Assembly (NCBI GenBank): GCA_025362975.1
Contig: JANYES010000011.1
Span: forward strand, 317,581 to 381,580
Direction of reading: 5' to 3'
Length of the DNA: 64,000 nt
From: Alphaproteobacteria bacterium
GTDB taxonomy: Bacteria > Pseudomonadota > Alphaproteobacteria > Rickettsiales > SXRF01
In this document: piece by piece, positions 34,116 to 43,107 of the stretch
Numbering within the stretch: position 1 is the stretch's first letter
How the letters are laid out: every line of letters begins with the position of its first letter
Notes under the pieces: model-generated
Database searches by the model: none
What the model was told of the DNA's origin: nothing
Seen by the model: only the letters and a program-made list of their open reading frames with translations
Made by a program: the position numbers and the translations under genes

Positions 34116-34871
34116 GTGGCAGAAGCAGAAGCAGCAGCCGGGCATCATTCCCCCCTCGCCCAGTTCGAGGTTCACCCGCTGATTCCGTTCAAGGTCGGAC
34201 ATCTCGACCTGAGCTTTACCAACGCGTCGTTGTGGATGGTGCTTGCCGTCGGCATGGTCACCTTCATGATGTTCATGGGCGTTCGCTCGCGCCAGCTCGT
34301 TCCCGGCCGCTGGCAGTCGCTTTCCGAAGTGCTCGTGCAGTTCATCAATAACACCGTGCGTGACTGCGCTGGCAATGCGGGCCTCAAATATTTCCCGCTG
34401 ATCTTCTCGCTGTTCATGTTCATCTTGCTGTGCAACCTGCTCGGCATGATTCCGTATTCCTTCACCGTCACCAGCCACATCATCGTCACCTTCGCGCTCG
34501 CCATCGTGATTTTCGTCGGCTGCACGCTGATCGCCATCGTCAAACACGGCCCCGGCAAATTCCTGCATTCCTTCCTTCCCGAAGGCACGCCGCTGTGGAT
34601 GGCCCCGCTGATGTATTTCATCGAATTATTTTCCTACCTCGCCCGCCCGGTAAGCCTCTCGGTTCGTCTTGCCGCCAACATGATGGCTGGCCACACGATG
34701 CTGAAAGTCATCGCGGGTTTCGTGATCATGCTGGGCATTTTCGGTGGCTGGGCGCCGCTGGCGCTGCTCGTCGTGCTGACCGGCTTCGAAGTAGGTATCG
34801 CTGTATTGCAGGCGTATATTTTCACGGTACTGACGTGCGTTTATCTCAATAATGCACTTCATTTACACTAA
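34116..34871 (+). CDS. atpB: F0F1 ATP synthase subunit a
   Basis: Membrane stator subunit forming the proton channel against the c-ring. The 251-residue protein has multiple membrane segments and the essential Arg in the SVRLAANMMAGH block. The start is GTG at 34116, preceded by AAAGGA. It belongs to the alphaproteobacterial F0 operon atpI-B-E-F'-F. Confidence 0.96.
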   Translation: MAEAEAAAGHHSPLAQFEVHPLIPFKVGHLDLSFTNASLWMVLAVGMVTFMMFMGVRSRQLVPGRWQSLSEVLVQFINNTVRDCAGNAGLKYFPLIFSLFMFILLCNLLGMIPYSFTVTSHIIVTFALAIVIFVGCTLIAIVKHGPGKFLHSFLPEGTPLWMAPLMYFIELFSYLARPVSLSVRLAANMMAGHTMLKVIAGFVIMLGIFGGWAPLALLVVLTGFEVGIAVLQAYIFTVLTCVYLNNALHLH

Positions 34872-35176: not shown

Positions 35177-35668
35177 ATGCCGCAACTTGACCCTACATGG
35201 TTTGCTTCCCAGCTTTTCTGGCTGGTAGTGACGTTCCTCGCGCTGTACACGATTTTGTCGCGCCTCGTCCTGCCGCCGCTACTGGAAGTCATGGCACGCC
35301 GTGCTAGCACGGTTGAGGGCGACATTTCGACTGCGCAATCGCTTAAATCTCAGGCCGAGCAGGCGCGTTTGGATTACGAACGCGCCTTCGCCGAGGCTCG
35401 CGGCAAAGCGCAAGCCCTGATCAACGACACTATGTCGATCTACAAAGCCAAGGCGGAAGTTTCGGCCAAGGATATGGACAAACAGATTGAAACCAAGCTC
35501 GCGCAGGCAAGCAAGGACATCATCGCCCAAAAGCAGGAAATGATTTCAAATCTCACTCCCGCGGTCGGCGAACTCACCAACTTGATCGTCGAAAAACTGC
35601 TGCAGGCCTCGCCGGGCAGCGAACAGGTTGAAAAAGCCGTCGCAGGCGCACAGAAAGGCCGGAGGTAG
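35177..35668 (+). CDS. atpF': F0F1 ATP synthase subunit b'
   Basis: Peripheral-stalk subunit of 163 residues: one N-terminal membrane segment (LFWLVVTFLALYTILSRLVL) and a long coiled coil rich in Ala, Glu, Lys and Gln. The presence of two b-type genes in tandem (b' then b) is typical of alphaproteobacteria and cyanobacteria. Confidence 0.93.
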   Translation: MPQLDPTWFASQLFWLVVTFLALYTILSRLVLPPLLEVMARRASTVEGDISTAQSLKSQAEQARLDYERAFAEARGKAQALINDTMSIYKAKAEVSAKDMDKQIETKLAQASKDIIAQKQEMISNLTPAVGELTNLIVEKLLQASPGSEQVEKAVAGAQKGRR

Positions 35669-35670
35669 TC

Positions 35671-36153
35671 ATGTTGGAAGATCCACGTTTCTGGGTTGCC
35701 GTTTCCTTCTTCGCGTTCGTCGTCGGCACCTACAAAAAAGTCTCGTCGCTCGCCATGAAAGCGCTCGATAGCCGCTCCGCCAAAATCAAGCAGGAGCTTG
35801 ACGAAGCGCGCTCGCTGCGTGAACAGGCCGAAGCCGTTCTCGCACAATATAAGCAAAAACAGGCCGAATACTTGCAAGAAGCCGAAATGCTCCTCGCCAA
35901 CGCCCGCCGCGACGCCGAAACCATGCGCGTCACCGCTGAAGCAGATCTGAAGGCTTCGCTCGACACCCGCCAGAAACAGGCGATGGACCGCATCGCGCAG
36001 GAAGAAACCAACGCTATCGCAGAAGTACGCAACCATGTTGTCGACATGGCCCTCACCGCCGCCCGCACCATCATCGCCGACCATGTGAGCAGCATGTCGC
36101 AGGACGATCTGGTGAAGATGGCGCTGTCCGATATCGACCGCAAAATTCACTAA
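35671..36153 (+). CDS. atpF: F0F1 ATP synthase subunit b
   Basis: A 160-residue peripheral-stalk subunit with a short N-terminal membrane segment (FWVAVSFFAFVVGTY) and a coiled coil, starting 2 bases after the b' stop. It ends the F0 operon; no F1 genes (atpHAGDC) follow, as expected for alphaproteobacteria, where F1 is a separate locus. Confidence 0.93.
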   Translation: MLEDPRFWVAVSFFAFVVGTYKKVSSLAMKALDSRSAKIKQELDEARSLREQAEAVLAQYKQKQAEYLQEAEMLLANARRDAETMRVTAEADLKASLDTRQKQAMDRIAQEETNAIAEVRNHVVDMALTAARTIIADHVSSMSQDDLVKMALSDIDRKIH

Positions 36154-36195
36154 ATACTCCGGGTCAACTTGCTCACGCACAGCCACTCCACGAAT

Positions 36196-36228
36196 TGTCA
36201 TCCCGTCCCCGTCATGCAGCGGGTGACA
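36196..36228. repeat. Copy of the gtcaccccgtc-type palindromic repeat
   Basis: tgtcatcccgtc...cagcgggtgaca in the spacer downstream of atpF; imperfect relative to the copy at 22116-22155. Confidence 0.65.
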
Positions 36229-36356
36229 GCCTGTGAATAATGGCACACTGGCATTTTAGCCACTATCGGTAATTATCCACCACCGAAGCTCCTGTCCTGT
36301 ATTGATGCACATGCCTGATTTCAATACACTCGTCCTCAATTATGGATGGGTAAGGA

Positions 36357-37193
36357 ATGTGTTCTGCGCGTCGACTGCGATTTAGCTACCTCGCCGCCCT
36401 CGCGGCCAATGTCCTTGCTACCCCTGCGTATGCTGGCGCATGGATGCAAGCTCCCAACGAGGCGCTGGTCATCCTCAGCTCTTACGCCTACCAGTCCAAC
36501 CAGCGCTTCGACAATTCCAGCCACCGCGTCCACCAGCCGAATTACACGCAAGTTGGCCTCAACCCTTACGTTGAATACGGCCTGCGCGAGGACATCACCA
36601 TCGGCGCCAATCTCTTCTTCATCCGCGCGGCGCAATCGGGCGCACCAGCCCAGCGCGGCCAGTCCAATTTCGGCATCGGCGACAGCGAGTTTTTCCTGCG
36701 TAAAAAACTCTGGCAGAAAGACGGCTTTGCGCTGTCGCTGCAACCCTTCATCAAACTTCCAAGCCCTCAGTCTTCCACGTCCGACACCCCTAAGTTAGGC
36801 AGCTCACACCCAGATCTCGGCGCCAGTCTTTCCGGCGGTTACGGCTTCTCCGCTTTCGGCCAGAACCATTTCATCGAGATCACCCCGCAATACCGCTATC
36901 GCTTCGGCCCGCAGCGCAACCAGCTCAACGCTGCCGCCACACTGGGCGTTCATGTCACGGAAAAATGGATGCTCATGCCGCAACTCTTCCTCACCTCGCG
37001 CACCTCTGAACGCGCCAACGCCACATTCACCCAGTCGTCCGCCGACGATTACGACGCCACGCGCGCGCAGCTTTCCGCCGTCTATGATTTGCGCAAAGAC
37101 GTCTCCGTGCAATTCGGCGGTTTCACCGACCTTAACGGTCGCAACGCTGGCCGCGGCCAAGGCATTTTATTCGCGTTATGGAAGCGGCTGTAG
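36357..37193 (+). CDS. Outer-membrane beta-barrel protein
   Basis: A 278-residue protein with a signal peptide (cleavage near TPAYA) and alternating polar/aromatic strands through the whole length (for example HFIEITPQYRYRFG). It ends in an aromatic-rich strand GILFALWKRL. It resembles small barrel proteins annotated as transporters or DUF-type barrels; the cargo is unknown. It immediately precedes a membrane glycosyltransferase gene, so the two may form an export pathway. Confidence 0.75.
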   Translation: MCSARRLRFSYLAALAANVLATPAYAGAWMQAPNEALVILSSYAYQSNQRFDNSSHRVHQPNYTQVGLNPYVEYGLREDITIGANLFFIRAAQSGAPAQRGQSNFGIGDSEFFLRKKLWQKDGFALSLQPFIKLPSPQSSTSDTPKLGSSHPDLGASLSGGYGFSAFGQNHFIEITPQYRYRFGPQRNQLNAAATLGVHVTEKWMLMPQLFLTSRTSERANATFTQSSADDYDATRAQLSAVYDLRKDVSVQFGGFTDLNGRNAGRGQGILFALWKRL

Positions 37194-37204
37194 CCTTCAG
37201 GCCC

Positions 37205-39052
37205 ATGCATTTTAAAACGCCGCTCGGTGCCATCCTGATCGAGCGCGGGCTGATCAGCCACGACGAACTGCGCGAAGCGCTCGCCATACAAAGCCGTGAC
37301 GGCACGCGGCTGGGCGATATCCTCATCAGCGAAGGCCTGATCGACTATTACGATCTCTACAACGCCATCGCCGAAAGCAACAACATGCCCTTCATCAACC
37401 TGCTTGAACAGCCGCCGCAGACCGACCTGCTCGATGCGATGGACGCCGACACCTACCTGAAGCTACGCATCCTGCCGTGGAAGCGCGAAGGCGATTCGAT
37501 TATCATCGCCGTATGCGAAGTGACGCTCGAAATCATGATATGGATTCGCCAATGGTTCGGTCTCAGCACGCAGCTCGTCGCCACCTCGCCTATCGATATC
37601 AAACAAACCGTCGAGCGTCTGTTCGGCTCAAAACTCGAAGAAGAAAGCTGCCTGACTTTGCTCAAACACGCGCCCCAGGCTTCCGCCTACCTGACACTCA
37701 TGCCGCGACAAAAATGGGTGCTCGCCGCCTTGCTGCTCACCACCATCGGCTGCATCCTCTATAATGCCCCCACCACCTTACTCGTATTGCTGATGTTGTG
37801 TCAGGTAACTTACGCACTCACCATGATCTTCAAAACTTTAGTCTTTTCGGTTGGTCAATTGCAACGCCCAAAACTCAAAAACTACACCAGTATCGACCCG
37901 CAGGATTTGCCCATCTACACCATTCTCATCCCCATGTACCGCGAGGCCGAAAGCCTGCCCGGCATGCTCATATCCATGCACAATCTTGACTATCCCGCTT
38001 CCAAGCTCGACATCAAACTCGTGCTCGAAGAAGACGACGACGAAACGCTCGACGCTGCTTACGCGCTTCGCCCGCGCTACCAGTTCGACCTCATCCGCGT
38101 GCCGCGCGGGCAGACGCGCACCAAGCCCAAAGCCTGCAATTACGCACTGCGTTTCGCGCGCGGCGAATTCATCACCATCTTCGACGCCGACGACCGCCCC
38201 GAGCCCGCGCAGCTTAAAAAAGCCGTGCACGCTTTCCGCACCTTGCCCGAAGACGTCGTCTGCCTGCAAGGCAGGCTCAATTACTACAACGCCAACGACA
38301 ATTTGCTCACGCGCTTTTTCTCGCTGGAATATTCAATGCTGTTTCGCGTCCTCCTTCCCGGCTTAGAGCGTCTCGGTATCCCCATCCCGCTTGGTGGCAC
38401 CTCCAACCACATCGCCCTCGAACGCCTCAAAAACTTGGGCGAGTGGGACCCCTACAACGTCACCGAAGACGCCGATCTCGGCACCCGCCTTGCTGCTCAA
38501 GGCCTTCGCACCGCGATGCTCGATTCCGACACGATGGAAGAAGCCCCCAACCTCTATTGCGCCTGGATCCGCCAGCGCTCGCGCTGGATTAAAGGCTACA
38601 TGCAGACATGGCTGGTGCACATGCGCCATCCCGTGTCGCTTTATCGCCAGCTTGGATGGCGCAGCTTCTTAGGTTTTCAGTGTTTCATTGGCCTGTCCAG
38701 CTTCACGTTTCTGTCCGCGCCGGTGCTGTGGTGTGTGTCGCTGGCATGGGCAAGCGGCATGCTGCGCATGGAATTCCCCACATGGCTCGGCTGGCTCACC
38801 GCCGCGAATCTCATCTTCAACGGCGCTACGCACTGGTACTACACCCTGTACTGTGCCGCGCGTTACCACCGGCGCAGCTGGGGCATGGCACTGGCCGTGG
38901 CGGCCTATCCGCTCTATCTCGTGCTGCATTCCATTGCCAGTTACAAAGCGTTATGGCAGCTCATGGTCCGTCCGCATTTCTGGGAAAAGACGGTGCACGG
39001 CCGGGCGCGCACGCAGGTTGCGCCGCCCGCTTATGCGGCGTCATTGAAATAA
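37205..39052 (+). CDS. Processive family 2 glycosyltransferase with N-terminal MshEN domain
   Basis: A 615-residue inner-membrane enzyme. Residues about 6-140 form a MshEN (GspE N-terminal) domain with two motif copies (LGAILIERGLISHDELREAL and RLGDILISEGLIDYYDLYNA), the type that binds c-di-GMP in MshE and NfrB relatives. Two membrane segments follow (about 170-215), then a GT2 domain with DAD at 327-329, TED at 420-422 and QRSRW at 457-461, the processive synthase signature. More membrane segments close the protein. ATG 37205 is chosen; the frame also opens at 37178, inside the barrel gene. It probably makes an exopolysaccharide under c-di-GMP control; this is inferred. Confidence 0.88.
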   Translation: MHFKTPLGAILIERGLISHDELREALAIQSRDGTRLGDILISEGLIDYYDLYNAIAESNNMPFINLLEQPPQTDLLDAMDADTYLKLRILPWKREGDSIIIAVCEVTLEIMIWIRQWFGLSTQLVATSPIDIKQTVERLFGSKLEEESCLTLLKHAPQASAYLTLMPRQKWVLAALLLTTIGCILYNAPTTLLVLLMLCQVTYALTMIFKTLVFSVGQLQRPKLKNYTSIDPQDLPIYTILIPMYREAESLPGMLISMHNLDYPASKLDIKLVLEEDDDETLDAAYALRPRYQFDLIRVPRGQTRTKPKACNYALRFARGEFITIFDADDRPEPAQLKKAVHAFRTLPEDVVCLQGRLNYYNANDNLLTRFFSLEYSMLFRVLLPGLERLGIPIPLGGTSNHIALERLKNLGEWDPYNVTEDADLGTRLAAQGLRTAMLDSDTMEEAPNLYCAWIRQRSRWIKGYMQTWLVHMRHPVSLYRQLGWRSFLGFQCFIGLSSFTFLSAPVLWCVSLAWASGMLRMEFPTWLGWLTAANLIFNGATHWYYTLYCAARYHRRSWGMALAVAAYPLYLVLHSIASYKALWQLMVRPHFWEKTVHGRARTQVAPPAYAASLK

Positions 39053-39121: not shown

Positions 39122-39484
39122 ATGACTCGCTTCACCGTGAATTATTTAATTGGCTTCGCCCTCGCACTTCTCTTTCCAGCCGCCGCCTTCGCCGCCGACG
39201 CCACCACGCCCGCGACCGCCGACACGAAGCGCTACGTCATCACCCTCAAGAACCACGAATTTACCCCGATGGAACTCACCGTCCCCGCCAGCCAGAAATT
39301 CGAACTCACCGTGAAAAATGACGACCAGCAACCCTTCGAATTCGAAAGCAGCCAGCTTAAGCGCGAAAAGATCGTGCAGCCGAACGAATCCATCATCATC
39401 AAATTCAACGAGCTGAAACCCGGCACGTATAAATACGTCGACGATTTCAACGAAAGCGCGTTCGGTTACATCACCGTCAAATAA
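39122..39484 (+). CDS. Periplasmic cupredoxin-domain protein (FTR1 partner)
   Basis: A 120-residue exported protein: signal peptide ending AAAFA (about 24) and one cupredoxin fold. Blocks NHEFTPMELTVPA, FESSQLKREK and PGTYKYVDDFNE fit the Cupredoxin_1 group found next to FTR1 iron permeases. The usual Cys copper ligand is absent, so it is probably an iron-delivery or accessory domain rather than a blue copper protein. Its stop abuts the permease ATG. Confidence 0.8.
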   Translation: MTRFTVNYLIGFALALLFPAAAFAADATTPATADTKRYVITLKNHEFTPMELTVPASQKFELTVKNDDQQPFEFESSQLKREKIVQPNESIIIKFNELKPGTYKYVDDFNESAFGYITVK

Positions 39485-40309
39485 ATGCTGTCCACCGCCA
39501 TCATCATTTTCCGCGAGACGCTTGAGATTGCCATGATCTTAGGCGTGGTGCTCGCAGCCACGCGCGGCCTCGCCGGGCGCACAAGCTGGATTGCGTTCGG
39601 CTTTGCTGCGGGCGTGGGCGGTGCGGGGCTAGTGGCGCTGTTCACCAGTTCAATCTCCAACGCCCTGTCAGGTTCCGGTCAGGAGCTGTTCAACGCCGCT
39701 ATTTTATTCGCCGCCGCGCTCATGATCGGCTGCACGGTGCTGTGGATGCACAAACACGCCCGCGAGATGGCGGCCCAGCTCCGCAAAGTCGGCCAAGAAG
39801 TCAGCGCCGGCAACATGCCGCTATATTCGCTATCGCTCATCATCGGCCTATCGCTTTTACGCGAAGGCTCGGAAATCGTGATGTTCATCTACGGCATGAT
39901 GCTTTCCGGCCAAAGCGGCGCTTCCATTACCGGCGGTGCCGCGCTCGGTTTCGCGCTCGGCACGGTGGCCGGTGTGATGCTTTACTACGGCCTGCTCAAA
40001 ATTCCCTCGCGCCACGCGCTGAAAGTCACCAGCTGGCTGCTGATTCTGCTCGTGGCGGGCCTCATGTCCCAGTGCGCCGGATATCTTCAGGCCGCCGGGT
40101 ATTTCGAAGATTATTCCTCGCCCGTCTGGGACAGTTCATGGCTGCTTTCCGAGGAAAGTATCGCCGGAAAAACCCTGCATAGCCTGGTCGGATATAGCGC
40201 CTATCCCACCCCCGTGCAGATCGTTTTCTACCTGTTCACCCTCGCCCTGATTGTCGGTTTAATGCGCCACCACCGCGCAAAACACGCGGTCGCGCCCATA
40301 GTGGCGTAA
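39485..40309 (+). CDS. FTR1-family iron permease
   Basis: A 274-residue polytopic protein with the two REXXE iron-binding motifs, RETLE at 10-14 and REGSE at 126-130, and about seven membrane segments. FTR1/EfeU permeases import iron, usually in oxidised form with a periplasmic partner. It directly follows the cupredoxin gene with no spacer, and a Fur-like box precedes the pair. Confidence 0.9.
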   Translation: MLSTAIIIFRETLEIAMILGVVLAATRGLAGRTSWIAFGFAAGVGGAGLVALFTSSISNALSGSGQELFNAAILFAAALMIGCTVLWMHKHAREMAAQLRKVGQEVSAGNMPLYSLSLIIGLSLLREGSEIVMFIYGMMLSGQSGASITGGAALGFALGTVAGVMLYYGLLKIPSRHALKVTSWLLILLVAGLMSQCAGYLQAAGYFEDYSSPVWDSSWLLSEESIAGKTLHSLVGYSAYPTPVQIVFYLFTLALIVGLMRHHRAKHAVAPIVA

Positions 40310-40610
40310 TTTTTTTTCCTGCAACTACCGCGAGCGCAACTGCTCTAAAAACGCTGATTTACACGGTGCAAACTAGTTTGCGCATCGCTTAAATCCAGTA
40401 TTTCGCAGTTAATTACAATTTATTGTGCAAAATCAACCTAAGCCCCGCACGCACCGCAACATGCAACTTCGGGTTGGTACAACCGCACGAAATCGCGTCC
40501 ACGCAAGATAAGAAGCATAGATTGCATTTTAGCTAAATACTTTGATTTAATCTTTGAAATATAAACAAAATTCACTGTTTAACACGCTGAAAAAACAGTA
40601 CTCTGGAAGG
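40310..40610. other. Intergenic region before the pseudopilin gene
   Basis: About 300 bases of mixed composition. A perfect 14-base palindrome, gcaaactagtttgc, is at 40368-40381. The frame of the next gene is open back to a TTG at 40554, but this stretch lacks a leader-like sequence. No RNA gene recognised. Confidence 0.4.
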
Positions 40611-41456
40611 ATGAAGCCTGTTACTACCACACGCGCCGGACCCGAACTTCAAGCGGGTTTCACACTGATCGAGCTATCGATCGTGCTGGTCATCATCGGC
40701 CTGATCGTCGGTGGTATTCTTGTAGGCCAGGATCTCATCAAAGCCGCCGAAATCCGGGCCACAATTTCACAGGTGGAAAAATACAACGCCTCGGTCAACA
40801 CCTTTCGAAATAAATTTAACGCCATGCCCGGCGACATGCTGCAAGCCAACGCCGCCGCATTCGGATTACTTTCACTCAGCAACGCCGCGATGACAGGCCA
40901 GGGCGACGGCAATGCGCTCATCGAGGGCGGCAGCACCAACGGCATCAACGGCATCGGCGAAACGCTCGGCTTCTGGCGTCACCTGTCGGAAGCGAATCTC
41001 ATCGACGGTTCGTTCGGGAGTAACGGCAACGGCAACATCGTCCCTTCCACCGGCCTTCTCACCAGCAACGTCACCAATGTCGACCAGTCGCTGCCCGCTT
41101 CGAAAATAACGCCGCGCCAGTATTTCATCGTCTACGCCAACGGCGGATTGAATTACTTCCAGCTTTCCCCCGTCACCAGCATTACCGCCGCAACAGGCGC
41201 GTATAATTTCGGCACCTCCGCCATCGCGCCGCTCACCGCTGTCAATATCGACACCAAGATTGACGATGGCATGCCCAACACCGGCAGCATCATCGCGCGC
41301 GGCATCGCCGCCGTCAACGTGGCACCGTCGGTCAACCCCGCACCGACAGCCAGCACCTACACTATCGGCTCAGGCGCATCCACCGACACCTACAACGTCA
41401 CGCGCAACAACGGCGGCACAGACGGTTCGTGCAGCATGCGTTTCCGGTTCAACTAG
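40611..41456 (+). CDS. Type IV pilin-like protein (prepilin N-terminus)
   Basis: About 281 residues. A short basic leader is followed by the prepilin peptidase site and N-methylation helix (AGFTLIELSIVLVIIGLIVG), with Glu5 after the G/F cut. The next part (NTFRNKFNAMPGDML) is typical of a pseudopilin group; the rest is Asn/Gly/Thr-rich with a C-terminal Cys (DGSCSMRF). ATG 40611 directly after GGAAGG is chosen over TTG 40554. No other pilus genes are nearby, and it overlaps motB tail to tail by 4 bases. Confidence 0.85.
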   Translation: MKPVTTTRAGPELQAGFTLIELSIVLVIIGLIVGGILVGQDLIKAAEIRATISQVEKYNASVNTFRNKFNAMPGDMLQANAAAFGLLSLSNAAMTGQGDGNALIEGGSTNGINGIGETLGFWRHLSEANLIDGSFGSNGNGNIVPSTGLLTSNVTNVDQSLPASKITPRQYFIVYANGGLNYFQLSPVTSITAATGAYNFGTSAIAPLTAVNIDTKIDDGMPNTGSIIARGIAAVNVAPSVNPAPTASTYTIGSGASTDTYNVTRNNGGTDGSCSMRFRFN

Positions 41457-42148
41457 TTTGAAGGAGTTTCCATGCGGATAATGATGCGCTGGTTACGCAG
41501 ACGATTGGATTCAATATCATTGCCCTTGGCATCGCGGTTCGGCACCAACGGCTGCGTGCCCGCAAAGCTCGTGGCGCGAAGCTGCGCCGGGTTTACGCCT
41601 TCTTCCTGCAACACGTTGACAATCGTCGCCGCGCGCAGTGCTGCCAGCGACCAGTCGTTCATCGGCATGCCGCGTTCAGCATCCTTGCCGCTCGTGTGGC
41701 CTTCCACTTCGATGGTGTAAGCTGGCTGCACGTTCGCTTTCAAGGCCTGTGCGAGTTTCACTATAATCGCCATCTGCGCAGGCGGAATATTTGAAGACCC
41801 ATCGTCGAAGAACTGCACCGCCGATACATCGATGGCAATCCCGCGATTGGTTTTCTGCAACGAGATAAACTGGTCCGCATCGCTTGACATGATGACCCCC
41901 ACCAGCGTGCGATACGCTTCATCGAACGACGTTCCCAATTCCAGCGTTCCCGATTTATGCGTTCCCACCGGATGCTCCTGCTCCACCCCGCGATTCATGC
42001 TCATCGGATGGTTCTGGCGCGATACCGACACGGAAATCAGAATCACGAACAGCATGAACAGCAGCGTAATTAAATCGGCATAGCTCATCAGCCATGCGTC
42101 GACATGATCGGTTTGCCCTTTGGAATGACGGCGAATGTGTTTTTGCAT
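41453..42148 (-). CDS. motB: MotB-like flagellar motor stator protein
   Basis: Inner-membrane stator subunit anchoring to peptidoglycan. The 231-residue protein has one membrane segment with the proton-binding Asp25 in SYADLITLLFMLFV and a C-terminal OmpA-type domain (VEGHTSGKD...NRLRNQRIII). ATG 42148 has AGGGG 8 bases upstream and is preferred to ATG 42163. It lies 18 bases after motA. Confidence 0.88.
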   Translation of the reverse strand: MQKHIRRHSKGQTDHVDAWLMSYADLITLLFMLFVILISVSVSRQNHPMSMNRGVEQEHPVGTHKSGTLELGTSFDEAYRTLVGVIMSSDADQFISLQKTNRGIAIDVSAVQFFDDGSSNIPPAQMAIIVKLAQALKANVQPAYTIEVEGHTSGKDAERGMPMNDWSLAALRAATIVNVLQEEGVNPAQLRATSFAGTQPLVPNRDAKGNDIESNRLRNQRIIIRMETPSN

Positions 42149-42166
42149 AGTATTTCCCCTCATTTT

Positions 42167-43003
42167 TTAGGCCGCCATCGCAATGCGTTTTTGCATGGTC
42201 GTATACACCTGATCGCTCAAGTCGAGATGCTTGGACGGCTCAAGGAAGCTGTTCAAACGGTCCTGCATATAGAACGGTCTGCGTTTCTCAGCCAGCATAG
42301 CCAGCCCTTCCGTCACCATCATGTGACGCATATGCAGCTTCTCTTCACGCTGCAATAATTTATCCGCCGCTGGCAGGCACACAAGGCGCGCCACCAGAAT
42401 CCCGTACAGCGTCGACAGCATCGCAATACCCAAACCGCTTTCAATCCCGGCCAGATCGCCCGCCGCCTGCGTCAGCAGCGCCACCATGCCCACGAGTGTG
42501 CCCACCATGCCAAAGGCCGGCGCCGTCGCCGCCATGTTGCGAAGCACCGTCACCGGCATACAGCGGCGTTCGAATTCATTCTCCGCCACCGTGCTCAGCA
42601 TCTGGCGCACGCTTTCAGCCGTATAGCCCGACAGCACAAGGTCAAGCCCGTAGCGCATCAGCGGGTCATGCGCCTTCTTGCCGCTTTCGCGCTCAAGGCC
42701 CACGAGGTCCTTCTGCTGAATCACATATGACCACATAATCATCTGCATGATATCAAGGTGCAGATTATGCCCCTCCACCGGCGCAGGCTTCAACATGGCC
42801 TGAATCGTTTCAAATGCTTTCACCACGTCCTGCTTCTGATAGCTCAGATATGCATTGCCCACGCACCCGCCCAGTACAATCACCAGCCCTTCTATATTCA
42901 AAAACGCCCCATAACCGGTCAATGCAACCAGCGTACTCAGCACCACAATCGCCCCCAAAGCAAGTGCCAGCGGCCTTTTTGGCCCATCCAACGCTATTTT
43001 CAT
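42167..43003 (-). CDS. motA: MotA-like flagellar motor stator protein
   Basis: Ion-channel subunit of the flagellar stator, 278 residues, four membrane segments. The conserved block PAFGMVGTLVGMVALL contains the key Pro. The frame is open to 43342, but ATG 43003 is preceded by AGGAGG at ideal spacing and begins directly before the first membrane helix. The motAB pair stands alone without other flagellar genes. Confidence 0.9.
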   Translation of the reverse strand: MKIALDGPKRPLALALGAIVVLSTLVALTGYGAFLNIEGLVIVLGGCVGNAYLSYQKQDVVKAFETIQAMLKPAPVEGHNLHLDIMQMIMWSYVIQQKDLVGLERESGKKAHDPLMRYGLDLVLSGYTAESVRQMLSTVAENEFERRCMPVTVLRNMAATAPAFGMVGTLVGMVALLTQAAGDLAGIESGLGIAMLSTLYGILVARLVCLPAADKLLQREEKLHMRHMMVTEGLAMLAEKRRPFYMQDRLNSFLEPSKHLDLSDQVYTTMQKRIAMAA

Positions 43004-43079
43004 ACATCCTCCTGTTGCTCGTTTCTTAACATATAAGCAAATCCCATGCCTAAATAAGGCGCATGGCTGCATATATTGA

Positions 43080-43107
43080 TTGACGAATTTATTTTTAAAT
43101 ATACAAT
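43080..43107 (+). promoter_or_regulatory. Putative promoter of the receiver-kinase pair
   Basis: TTGACG at 43080-43085, a 16-base spacer, TACAAT at 43102-43107; 34 bases before the ATG at 43142, in an AT-rich stretch. Confidence 0.5.

Follow-up and report, generated by a model that had tools for sequence, protein, structure and literature searches.

What does a gene pair in an environmental relative of Rickettsia make, and under which signal? The pair lies in a 64,000-nucleotide stretch (the window) of contig JANYES010000011.1, from an alphaproteobacterium of the order Rickettsiales (assembly GCA_025362975.1), and encodes an outer-membrane beta-barrel protein followed by a family 2 glycosyltransferase (GT2; below, GT) with an N-terminal MshEN domain. 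It looks like a small machine for a surface sugar polymer whose production depends on cyclic di-GMP (c-di-GMP). The original prediction, made from the sequence, had placed the pair in a c-di-GMP-controlled polysaccharide pathway recalling NfrB of Escherichia coli; its likely core, a gated synthase with a small barrel and conserved adjacency, survives with c-di-GMP binding as an expectation, whereas the NfrB parentage does not. The pair is conserved and most likely constitutes a c-di-GMP-gated polysaccharide synthase with an outer-membrane exit. We assign a probability of about two-thirds (0.68) to the whole explanation, in which a minimal member of the XagB/Sfz2-like synthases combines such gating with a barrel exit, was inherited within the order, and lost switch and barrel in gene-poor lineages. 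The domains, the predicted folds, the adjacency of the genes, the lack of BcsB matches and the co-distribution are matters of observation. The synthase family is already known from work on biofilms, though little studied; the two-gene version in this order is a variant of it.

The synthase combines two recognisable parts. Towards the N-terminus, NF053729, a model of a 53-residue c-di-GMP motif, matches residues 15-66 with 59.3 bits (cut-off 38), and PF05157 matches residues 69-153 with 42.3 bits (cut-off 23.1). Two 24-residue motifs with a spacing of five residues carry most of the LG and LxxxLxxQ contacts of MshEN domains, and both satisfy the relaxed MshEN pattern published in PMC5013675. 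The best-matching stretch of Vibrio cholerae MshE (5htl), residues 7-108, is equal in length to window residues 13-114. Read residue by residue, a comparison that rests on these equal lengths and assumes no gap, 10 of the 12 c-di-GMP contact positions described for MshE (PMC5013675) are retained: L10, G11, L25, L29, Q32, R38, L39, G40 and L54 are identical, and Leu58 is conservatively replaced by Ile64. Of the 56 family members in the alignment, which span many phyla, 47 match the same c-di-GMP motif model at E 0.001. Because the GT part fills the structure alignment (VIA-align) list, in which no MshEN chain appears, the MshEN fold rests on the sequence models and on the model confidence (pLDDT). 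The window's genome contains ten GGDEF matches, and also a second MshEN-like match (G000:C20:56071-56439, locus L003) within a 629-residue frame that is possibly PilB/GspE-like by length.

The remainder is a processive GT2, as had been proposed from its DAD, TED and QRSRW motifs. PF13641 (73.9 bits) and PF13632 (70.2 bits) exceed their cut-offs; the DxD-like, TED and QxxRW motifs begin at residues 336 (DADD), 429 (TED) and 466 (QRSRW) and are accompanied by transmembrane helices. The family alignment shows no variation at D336, D339, E430, D431, Q466, R467 and W470. The AlphaFold2 (AF2) model (pLDDT 92.6, pTM 0.91) aligns best with PcManGT (Z 28.9, root-mean-square deviation (rmsd) 3.9 over 339 residues), followed by BcsA (Z 26.4) and hyaluronan synthase (Z 24.1). 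Among full-length NCBIfam models CelA scores best and PgaC next, all far below their cut-offs. Since CelA and PgaC match the GT part while the NfrB model reaches no further than the MshEN part (residues 13-118), the domain order looks like a separate fusion rather than a rearranged NfrB, as far as family models can tell, and NfrB as the parent system finds no support.

The barrel protein is less easily named. Pfam and NCBIfam searches with the single sequence returned no match at E 0.1, and PF13557 (Phenol_MetA_deg), unmatched by the window barrel itself, was matched by 3 of 42 relatives under a limit of E 1, with a best value of 1.4e-8. A profile built from these 42 relatives retrieves the COG4313 channel 4RL8 (E 1.3e-5). 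The AF2 model (mean pLDDT 90.9) has about 12 strands once short neighbouring segments are merged, and shares its barrel fold with 4RL8 (Z 24.6, rmsd 2.6 over 240 residues, 13% identity) and FapF (Z 23.0, 10% identity). We know of no polysaccharide role for either. The proposal of an outer-membrane barrel gene, left bare by the single-sequence searches, thus gains support from the predicted fold and the 4RL8 match.

Both genes recur throughout the order, in which 90 genomes were searched (G labels denote these genomes, L labels fetched loci). The GT is present in 61 of the 90, as read from the search listing, and the barrel is matched in 43; since both are kept in relatives, neither frame is a chance open reading frame. 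Of the 43 barrel-positive genomes, 38 have the barrel immediately before the GT and in its orientation, with gaps of up to 151 bases between matches; this bears out the conserved adjacency that a survey of relatives was expected to show. Five genomes are exceptions: barrel and GT lie on different contigs in G036, G045 and G086, one methyltransferase gene separates them in G038, and in G040 the barrel is at a contig edge with no GT match. A trained barrel profile adds barrels close to the GT in G021 and G047; this hidden Markov model scored its own training loci, which inflates its scores, an inflation from which the 54 single-sequence seeds (E 1e-10) are free. The BcsB model found no match in any of the 90 genomes, although very diverged copies could escape a model that scores the family's own BcsB-like genes at 21.5 to 87 bits. 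Equally, the partner clusters of the wider family described below (c2, c3, c9, c10 and c14) occur in none of the 40 fetched loci of the order.

Vertical inheritance of the pair through the order is probable, to judge from tree and gene context, because the order's GT rows fall on one side of the tree and ATP synthase genes lie upstream. The order's 59 rows are separated from 46 others by a branch with SH-aLRT 100, unchanged when L050 is added; the 46 outside rows (alignment A1) are the nearest matches of one scan and not a sample of all GT2 enzymes. The tree omits nine wider-scan rows taken as the order's own copies, of which L050 was judged by its atp context alone and groups with the order's rows once added, as well as L140 and L142, which are too short; rows on long branches are unsurely placed. 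Clusters of atp genes occur within five genes upstream in 15 of the 40 fetched loci (their identity was checked by Pfam on L128). A tblastn search of plasmids gave 11 records, all under 60% identity, three with a glycosyltransferase annotated under the match. Broken GT copies occur in L136 and L140 (G064 and G073), whose small genomes each consist of a single contig and belong to one family of the order, and in L051 the GT lies inside an unusually long open frame (1220 residues from the first start codon).

Beyond the order, a wider contig scan yielded at least 80 loci from several phyla, and the following counts are among the 80 listed, within the stretch examined around each GT. A BcsB-like cluster (c3) accompanies the GT in 40, a polytopic protein of about 500 residues with 5-11 hydrophobic peaks (c2) in 44, and a barrel in 45. 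GH113 (c9) is found in 15 loci, nine times on the GT's strand, a REC protein (c10) in 15, 14 times on that strand, and a ManC-like cluster (c14) in eight, always on that strand. Pfam names were assigned through representatives only: BcsB in L057, L101 and L078, GH113 in L057, L077 and L078, and ManC domains in L067, L103 and L116. The c10 protein might have been an active diguanylate cyclase within the relatives' gene run; GGDEF was matched over cut-off in 6 of the 11 members scanned, and we rejected this idea in view of the missing GG[DE]EF signature in 15 of 15. In some alphaproteobacterial relatives the gene run includes a REC protein whose GGDEF domain is degenerate, which we count in favour of c-di-GMP gating. 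In L069, L076, L094, L100, L110 and L112 the gene for this protein lies between the membrane-protein gene and the barrel.

Is the barrel the exit of the polymer, or might it be a general diffusion or nutrient channel that is merely co-transcribed, the polymer leaving otherwise or staying periplasmic? The latter would suit a protein whose closest folds are a COG4313 channel and then FapF, a protein transporter, whose sequence family is weakly related to Phenol_MetA_deg, and whose match lies away from the GT in two genomes, G036 and G045. The distribution of the barrel argues otherwise. It stands beside family GTs in Pseudomonadota, Acidobacteriota, Synergistota, Aquificota and Thermodesulfobacteriota, in different gene orders and on the GT's strand each time. 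It is near the GT in 45 of 69 listed loci that are diderm or unsure, and in none of 11 monoderm ones (Fisher 4e-5, a value to be read with the caution that related loci are not independent and that labels of metagenome-assembled genomes can be wrong). The 11 are loci of Chloroflexota, Thermomicrobiota, Actinomycetota and Paenibacillus, which we take to be monoderm; all 80 loci were counted here, while another tally omitted three near-identical Paenibacillus loci. Within the order, moreover, the barrel adjoins the GT in 34 of 36 genomes whose MshEN domain keeps both motif glycines, as against 4 of 20 without them. We therefore consider the channel reading unlikely, and retain a barrel that would serve as the exit.

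The last contrast belongs to a broader pattern of joint loss. We scored 56 genomes, of which 36 keep both glycines and 20 have lost them or lack the motifs; G036, G053, G060, G064, G078 and G089 are included, and G005, G013, G069, G073 and G079 (broken copies or fragments) are excluded. At least three GGDEF genes are present in 35 of the 36 and in 3 of the 20, and among genomes of 1.5-2.4 Mb the figures are 29 of 29 against 3 of 11. For example, G016, a 100% complete genome with no GGDEF gene, retains the MshEN domain (43.6 bits) but has lost the glycine from both motifs. Within family f23, G037 with two GGDEF genes has no MshEN domain, whereas G056, G078 and G088, with three to four, keep it. 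In L128 (4022-5806) the GT starts nine bases past the last sense codon of an atpF-like gene, and no barrel and no MshEN match were found there; this is a loss of exit and switch in place. In reduced lineages, then, the synthase persists, whereas the MshEN motifs tend to disappear along with the barrel and most GGDEF genes, a pattern which fits control by c-di-GMP.

Several results weigh against this account. Firstly, MshE Arg9 corresponds to Pro15 in the window protein and Gln61 to Ser67, so that the original description of two motif copies stands as to the domain and both motifs, though these are near-complete rather than perfect. The Arg, Leu and Gly contacts, whose absence had been named as grounds for doubt, are present when read on the sequence rather than on a ligand-bound model, with one Arg and one Gln missing. 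Proline is the commonest residue at position 15 (15 of 56 family members) and glutamine occurs at position 67 in 18 of 56. The PilF domain GSPII-C, in which one motif begins with proline, nonetheless binds c-di-GMP with an affinity similar to that of MshE (PMC11731258, PMC12002112); in GSPII-B, changing both glutamines to glutamate abolishes binding (PMC11731258), and S67 removes one of the two conserved glutamine contacts. Binding by the exact motif of the window is thus a prediction. Secondly, the GGDEF association is clade-bound: four changes suffice for the MshEN state on the GT tree, the independent pairs are only 3-4 in number, and a sign test is not significant. Genomes G045, G061 and G089, despite their 4-5 GGDEF genes, are without the glycines or the motif part, and G053 (58% complete) keeps the glycines with a single GGDEF gene. 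Thirdly, 24 of the 69 diderm or unsure loci show no barrel in the stretch examined, some of them near contig ends. Finally, in Xanthomonas, deleting either xagA or xagB reduces the elevated biofilm of an rpfG mutant (PMC3609779), but either deletion alone leaves biofilm unchanged in the wild type.

A rival reading takes the MshEN part for a structural relic, no longer binding c-di-GMP, with a synthase that is constitutive or otherwise regulated. P15 and S67 are deviations from the strict motif, and the glycines are lost in other members (L054, L058, L064) as well as in G045 and G061, each with four GGDEF genes. On the other hand L16, G17, L31, L35, Q38, R44, L45, G46 and L60 are all retained, both motifs satisfy the relaxed pattern, and GGDEF genes are plentiful in this genome, with ten matches. 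A relic thus appears improbable to us, and a functional c-di-GMP switch remains the preferred reading.

The substrate was approached through gene counts in the 22 carriers with both glycines and at least 95% completeness; G005 and G013 (broken N-terminal frames) and G036, G053, G060, G064, G069, G073, G078, G079 and G089 were omitted. The gene galU occurs in 21, of which G004 and G088 fall below the curated cut-off and the other 19 exceed it. Full-length ManC (GMP_PMI) is over cut-off in 15 and wecB over cut-off in 9, while the complete genome G038 has none of the three. N-acetylmannosamine (ManNAc) is disfavoured and GDP-mannose weakened as donors in the order because of the wecB and ManC counts. 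UDP-glucose or UDP-N-acetylglucosamine (UDP-GlcNAc) fit best here, judging by gene content; UDP-GlcNAc is needed for peptidoglycan in any case.

Two alternatives bear on this choice. A ManNAc polymer system of the NfrB type, its domain order reversed, would account for the combination of MshEN, GT2 and outer-membrane protein, and wecB is over cut-off in the window's own genome. Yet the distribution of wecB makes ManNAc an unlikely donor in this order, the NfrB model is aligned with the MshEN part only, and a barrel of 278 residues has no room for the tetratricopeptide repeat (TPR) part of NfrA; we rejected this reading as highly improbable. A mannose-containing polymer made from GDP-mannose is somewhat less remote, though still unlikely. 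The ManC-like cluster on the GT's strand comes from four phyla (L067, L070, L080, L081, L103, L104, L116 and L121); among four members that were scanned, both ManC domains are present in L067, L103 and L116, and L121 has the nucleotidyltransferase alone, without the isomerase part. GH113, a family that includes beta-mannanases, recurs as counted above (15 of 80 listed loci, nine on the GT's strand), PcManGT, the best VIA-align match (Z 28.9), is a mannosyltransferase, and in G036 (G036:C38:591-2491) a ManC match lies 35 bases upstream of the barrel, which there stands apart from the GT. These hints come mostly from other phyla, plus G036. Against them, full-length GMP_PMI was not found in the window's genome or in two congeners, where other routes to GDP-mannose were not searched, and among complete carriers it is rarer than galU (15 against 21 of 22).

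From the evidence above we infer c-di-GMP binding, activation, the identity of the polymer and export through the barrel. Working at the inner face of the inner membrane, the GT2 would polymerise a nucleotide sugar and extrude the chain through its own transmembrane helices, as its fold suggests; a c-di-GMP signal at the MshEN domain would gate synthesis; and the barrel, given its fold, its adjacency and its absence in monoderm groups, may be the chain's route across the outer membrane. The window's pair lacks the BcsB-like gene present in many relatives, and gene-poor lineages would have dropped c-di-GMP motifs and barrel while retaining the synthase. It is conceivable, though doubtful, that a two-protein route of c-di-GMP-gated synthesis and export, with neither a BcsB-like subunit nor a TPR scaffold, already existed in the common ancestor of the order, and that gene-poor lineages lost switch and exit together, leaving an ungated synthase of altered role.

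If the preferred reading is true, gated polysaccharide export would take no more than two proteins, one in each membrane, and could feasibly be reconstituted. The successive disappearance of switch, exit and, last, the synthase is a natural experiment on the roles of MshEN and barrel. The preferred reading would also provide a candidate second biofilm route for Rickettsiales beside pel; a published reconstruction reads pel loss as the loss of biofilm formation, and its main text is silent on glycosyltransferases and c-di-GMP (PMC9352585).

The coordinates of the pair are collected in Table 1. The spacing of the genes depends on the start chosen for the GT: from ATG 37178 it overlaps the barrel's end by 16 bases, and the predicted distance of 11 bases is correct if the in-frame ATG 37205 is used.

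Table 1. Features of the barrel and synthase locus, in window coordinates.
Feature	Position	Strand	Basis or remarks
Outer-membrane beta-barrel gene, 278 aa	36357-37193	+	AF2 model, 4RL8 fold match, relatives
Putative signal peptide of barrel protein, about residues 1-26	36357-36434	+	Judged by eye alone
MshEN-GT2 synthase gene, 624 aa from ATG 37178 or 615 aa from ATG 37205	37178/37205-39052	+	Domain models, AF2
MshEN motif I, residues 15-38	37220-37291	+	P15 replaces Arg9; L16, G17, L31, L35, Q38 kept
MshEN motif II, residues 44-67	37307-37378	+	R44, L45, G46, L60 kept; I64 for Leu58; S67 replaces Gln61
Remainder of MshEN domain, residues 69-153	37382-37636	+	PF05157
GT2 catalytic domain, residues 247-473	37916-38596	+	PF13641; fold match to BcsA, hyaluronan synthase, PcManGT
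DADD; TED; QRSRW	38183-38194; 38462-38470; 38573-38587	+	Motif positions within GT2
F0 ATP synthase genes a; b'; b (context outside the pair)	34116-34871; 35177-35668; 35671-36153	+	

The pair sits between these F0 ATP synthase genes and an iron uptake pair directly after the GT (39122-40309), consisting of a cupredoxin-like protein (weak EfeO match) and an FTR1/EfeU-like permease. Two congeners likewise carry an FTR1-type gene after the GT; a link of the system to iron was rejected, the FTR1-type cluster (c26) following the GT in only four loci of two congeners among 120 loci. Further downstream are a protein bearing a prepilin N-methylation motif (40554-41456; PF07963, TIGR02532) and, on the minus strand, a MotB/OmpA-like and MotA/ExbB-like pair (41453-43093). 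A c-di-GMP riboswitch upstream was considered and rejected: Rfam has no match of any kind in the window at gathering scores, nor any in 36000-36500 at E up to 1. Promoter and terminator scans remained at chance level.

How, then, does the pair compare with known systems? NfrB-NfrA-YbcH of E. coli unites an MshEN-controlled GT2 with an outer-membrane protein (PMC8669469). NfrB, however, has its MshEN domain at the C-terminus and uses a ManNAc donor, whereas in the window protein MshEN (residues 15-153) precedes GT2 (247-473), and NfrA is a large TPR-containing barrel protein, unlike the 278-residue, barrel-only protein of the window. BcsA and Pga are processive GT2 systems activated by c-di-GMP; with BcsA-BcsB-BcsC and PgaABCD the pair shares a processive GT2, its closest NCBIfam models (CelA and PgaC) and the BcsA fold, but its barrel is small and without TPR. 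As to BcsA itself, the synthase has no PilZ match at E 0.1, and no BcsB match exists in the 90 genomes. XagABCD of Xanthomonas, compared by description, likewise sets a separate xagA gene beside a GT2 gene, in four genes against the window's two.

The closest likeness is to Sfz2/Sfb2, from the xag-like cluster of stalk-forming iron oxidisers, which have the same N-terminal T2SS-E/MshEN-like domain and GT2. This architecture of Sfz2 is in print, the N-terminal domain being read there as EpsE-like (PMC8250860); no paper treating XagB together with MshEN was found in the literature searched. The proposal of a separate, minimal version with reversed order therefore stands as regards minimality (BcsB in 0 of 90 genomes, partner clusters in 0 of 40 loci) but not as regards order, since an N-terminal MshEN domain is common in the family (47 of 56) and published for Sfz2. 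In Ferriphaselus R-1 (L078) the gene run comprises a CSACH-bearing open reading frame, a BcsB-like gene, the GT, c2 and GH113, an order which fits the published cyc2, bcsB, xagB, xagC, xagD (PMC4643136). Its GT aligns with residues 14-612 of the window protein at 43% identity, a homology over the full length of the shared architecture. No barrel was found in L078, and the window has a barrel but none of L078's other partners; BcsB-, XagC- and XagD-like genes are missing from the order's loci (c3, c2 and c9 in 0 of 40; BcsB in 0 of 90). By its sequence, the window's pair is thus a member of the XagB/Sfz2-like synthase family, set in a different gene system.

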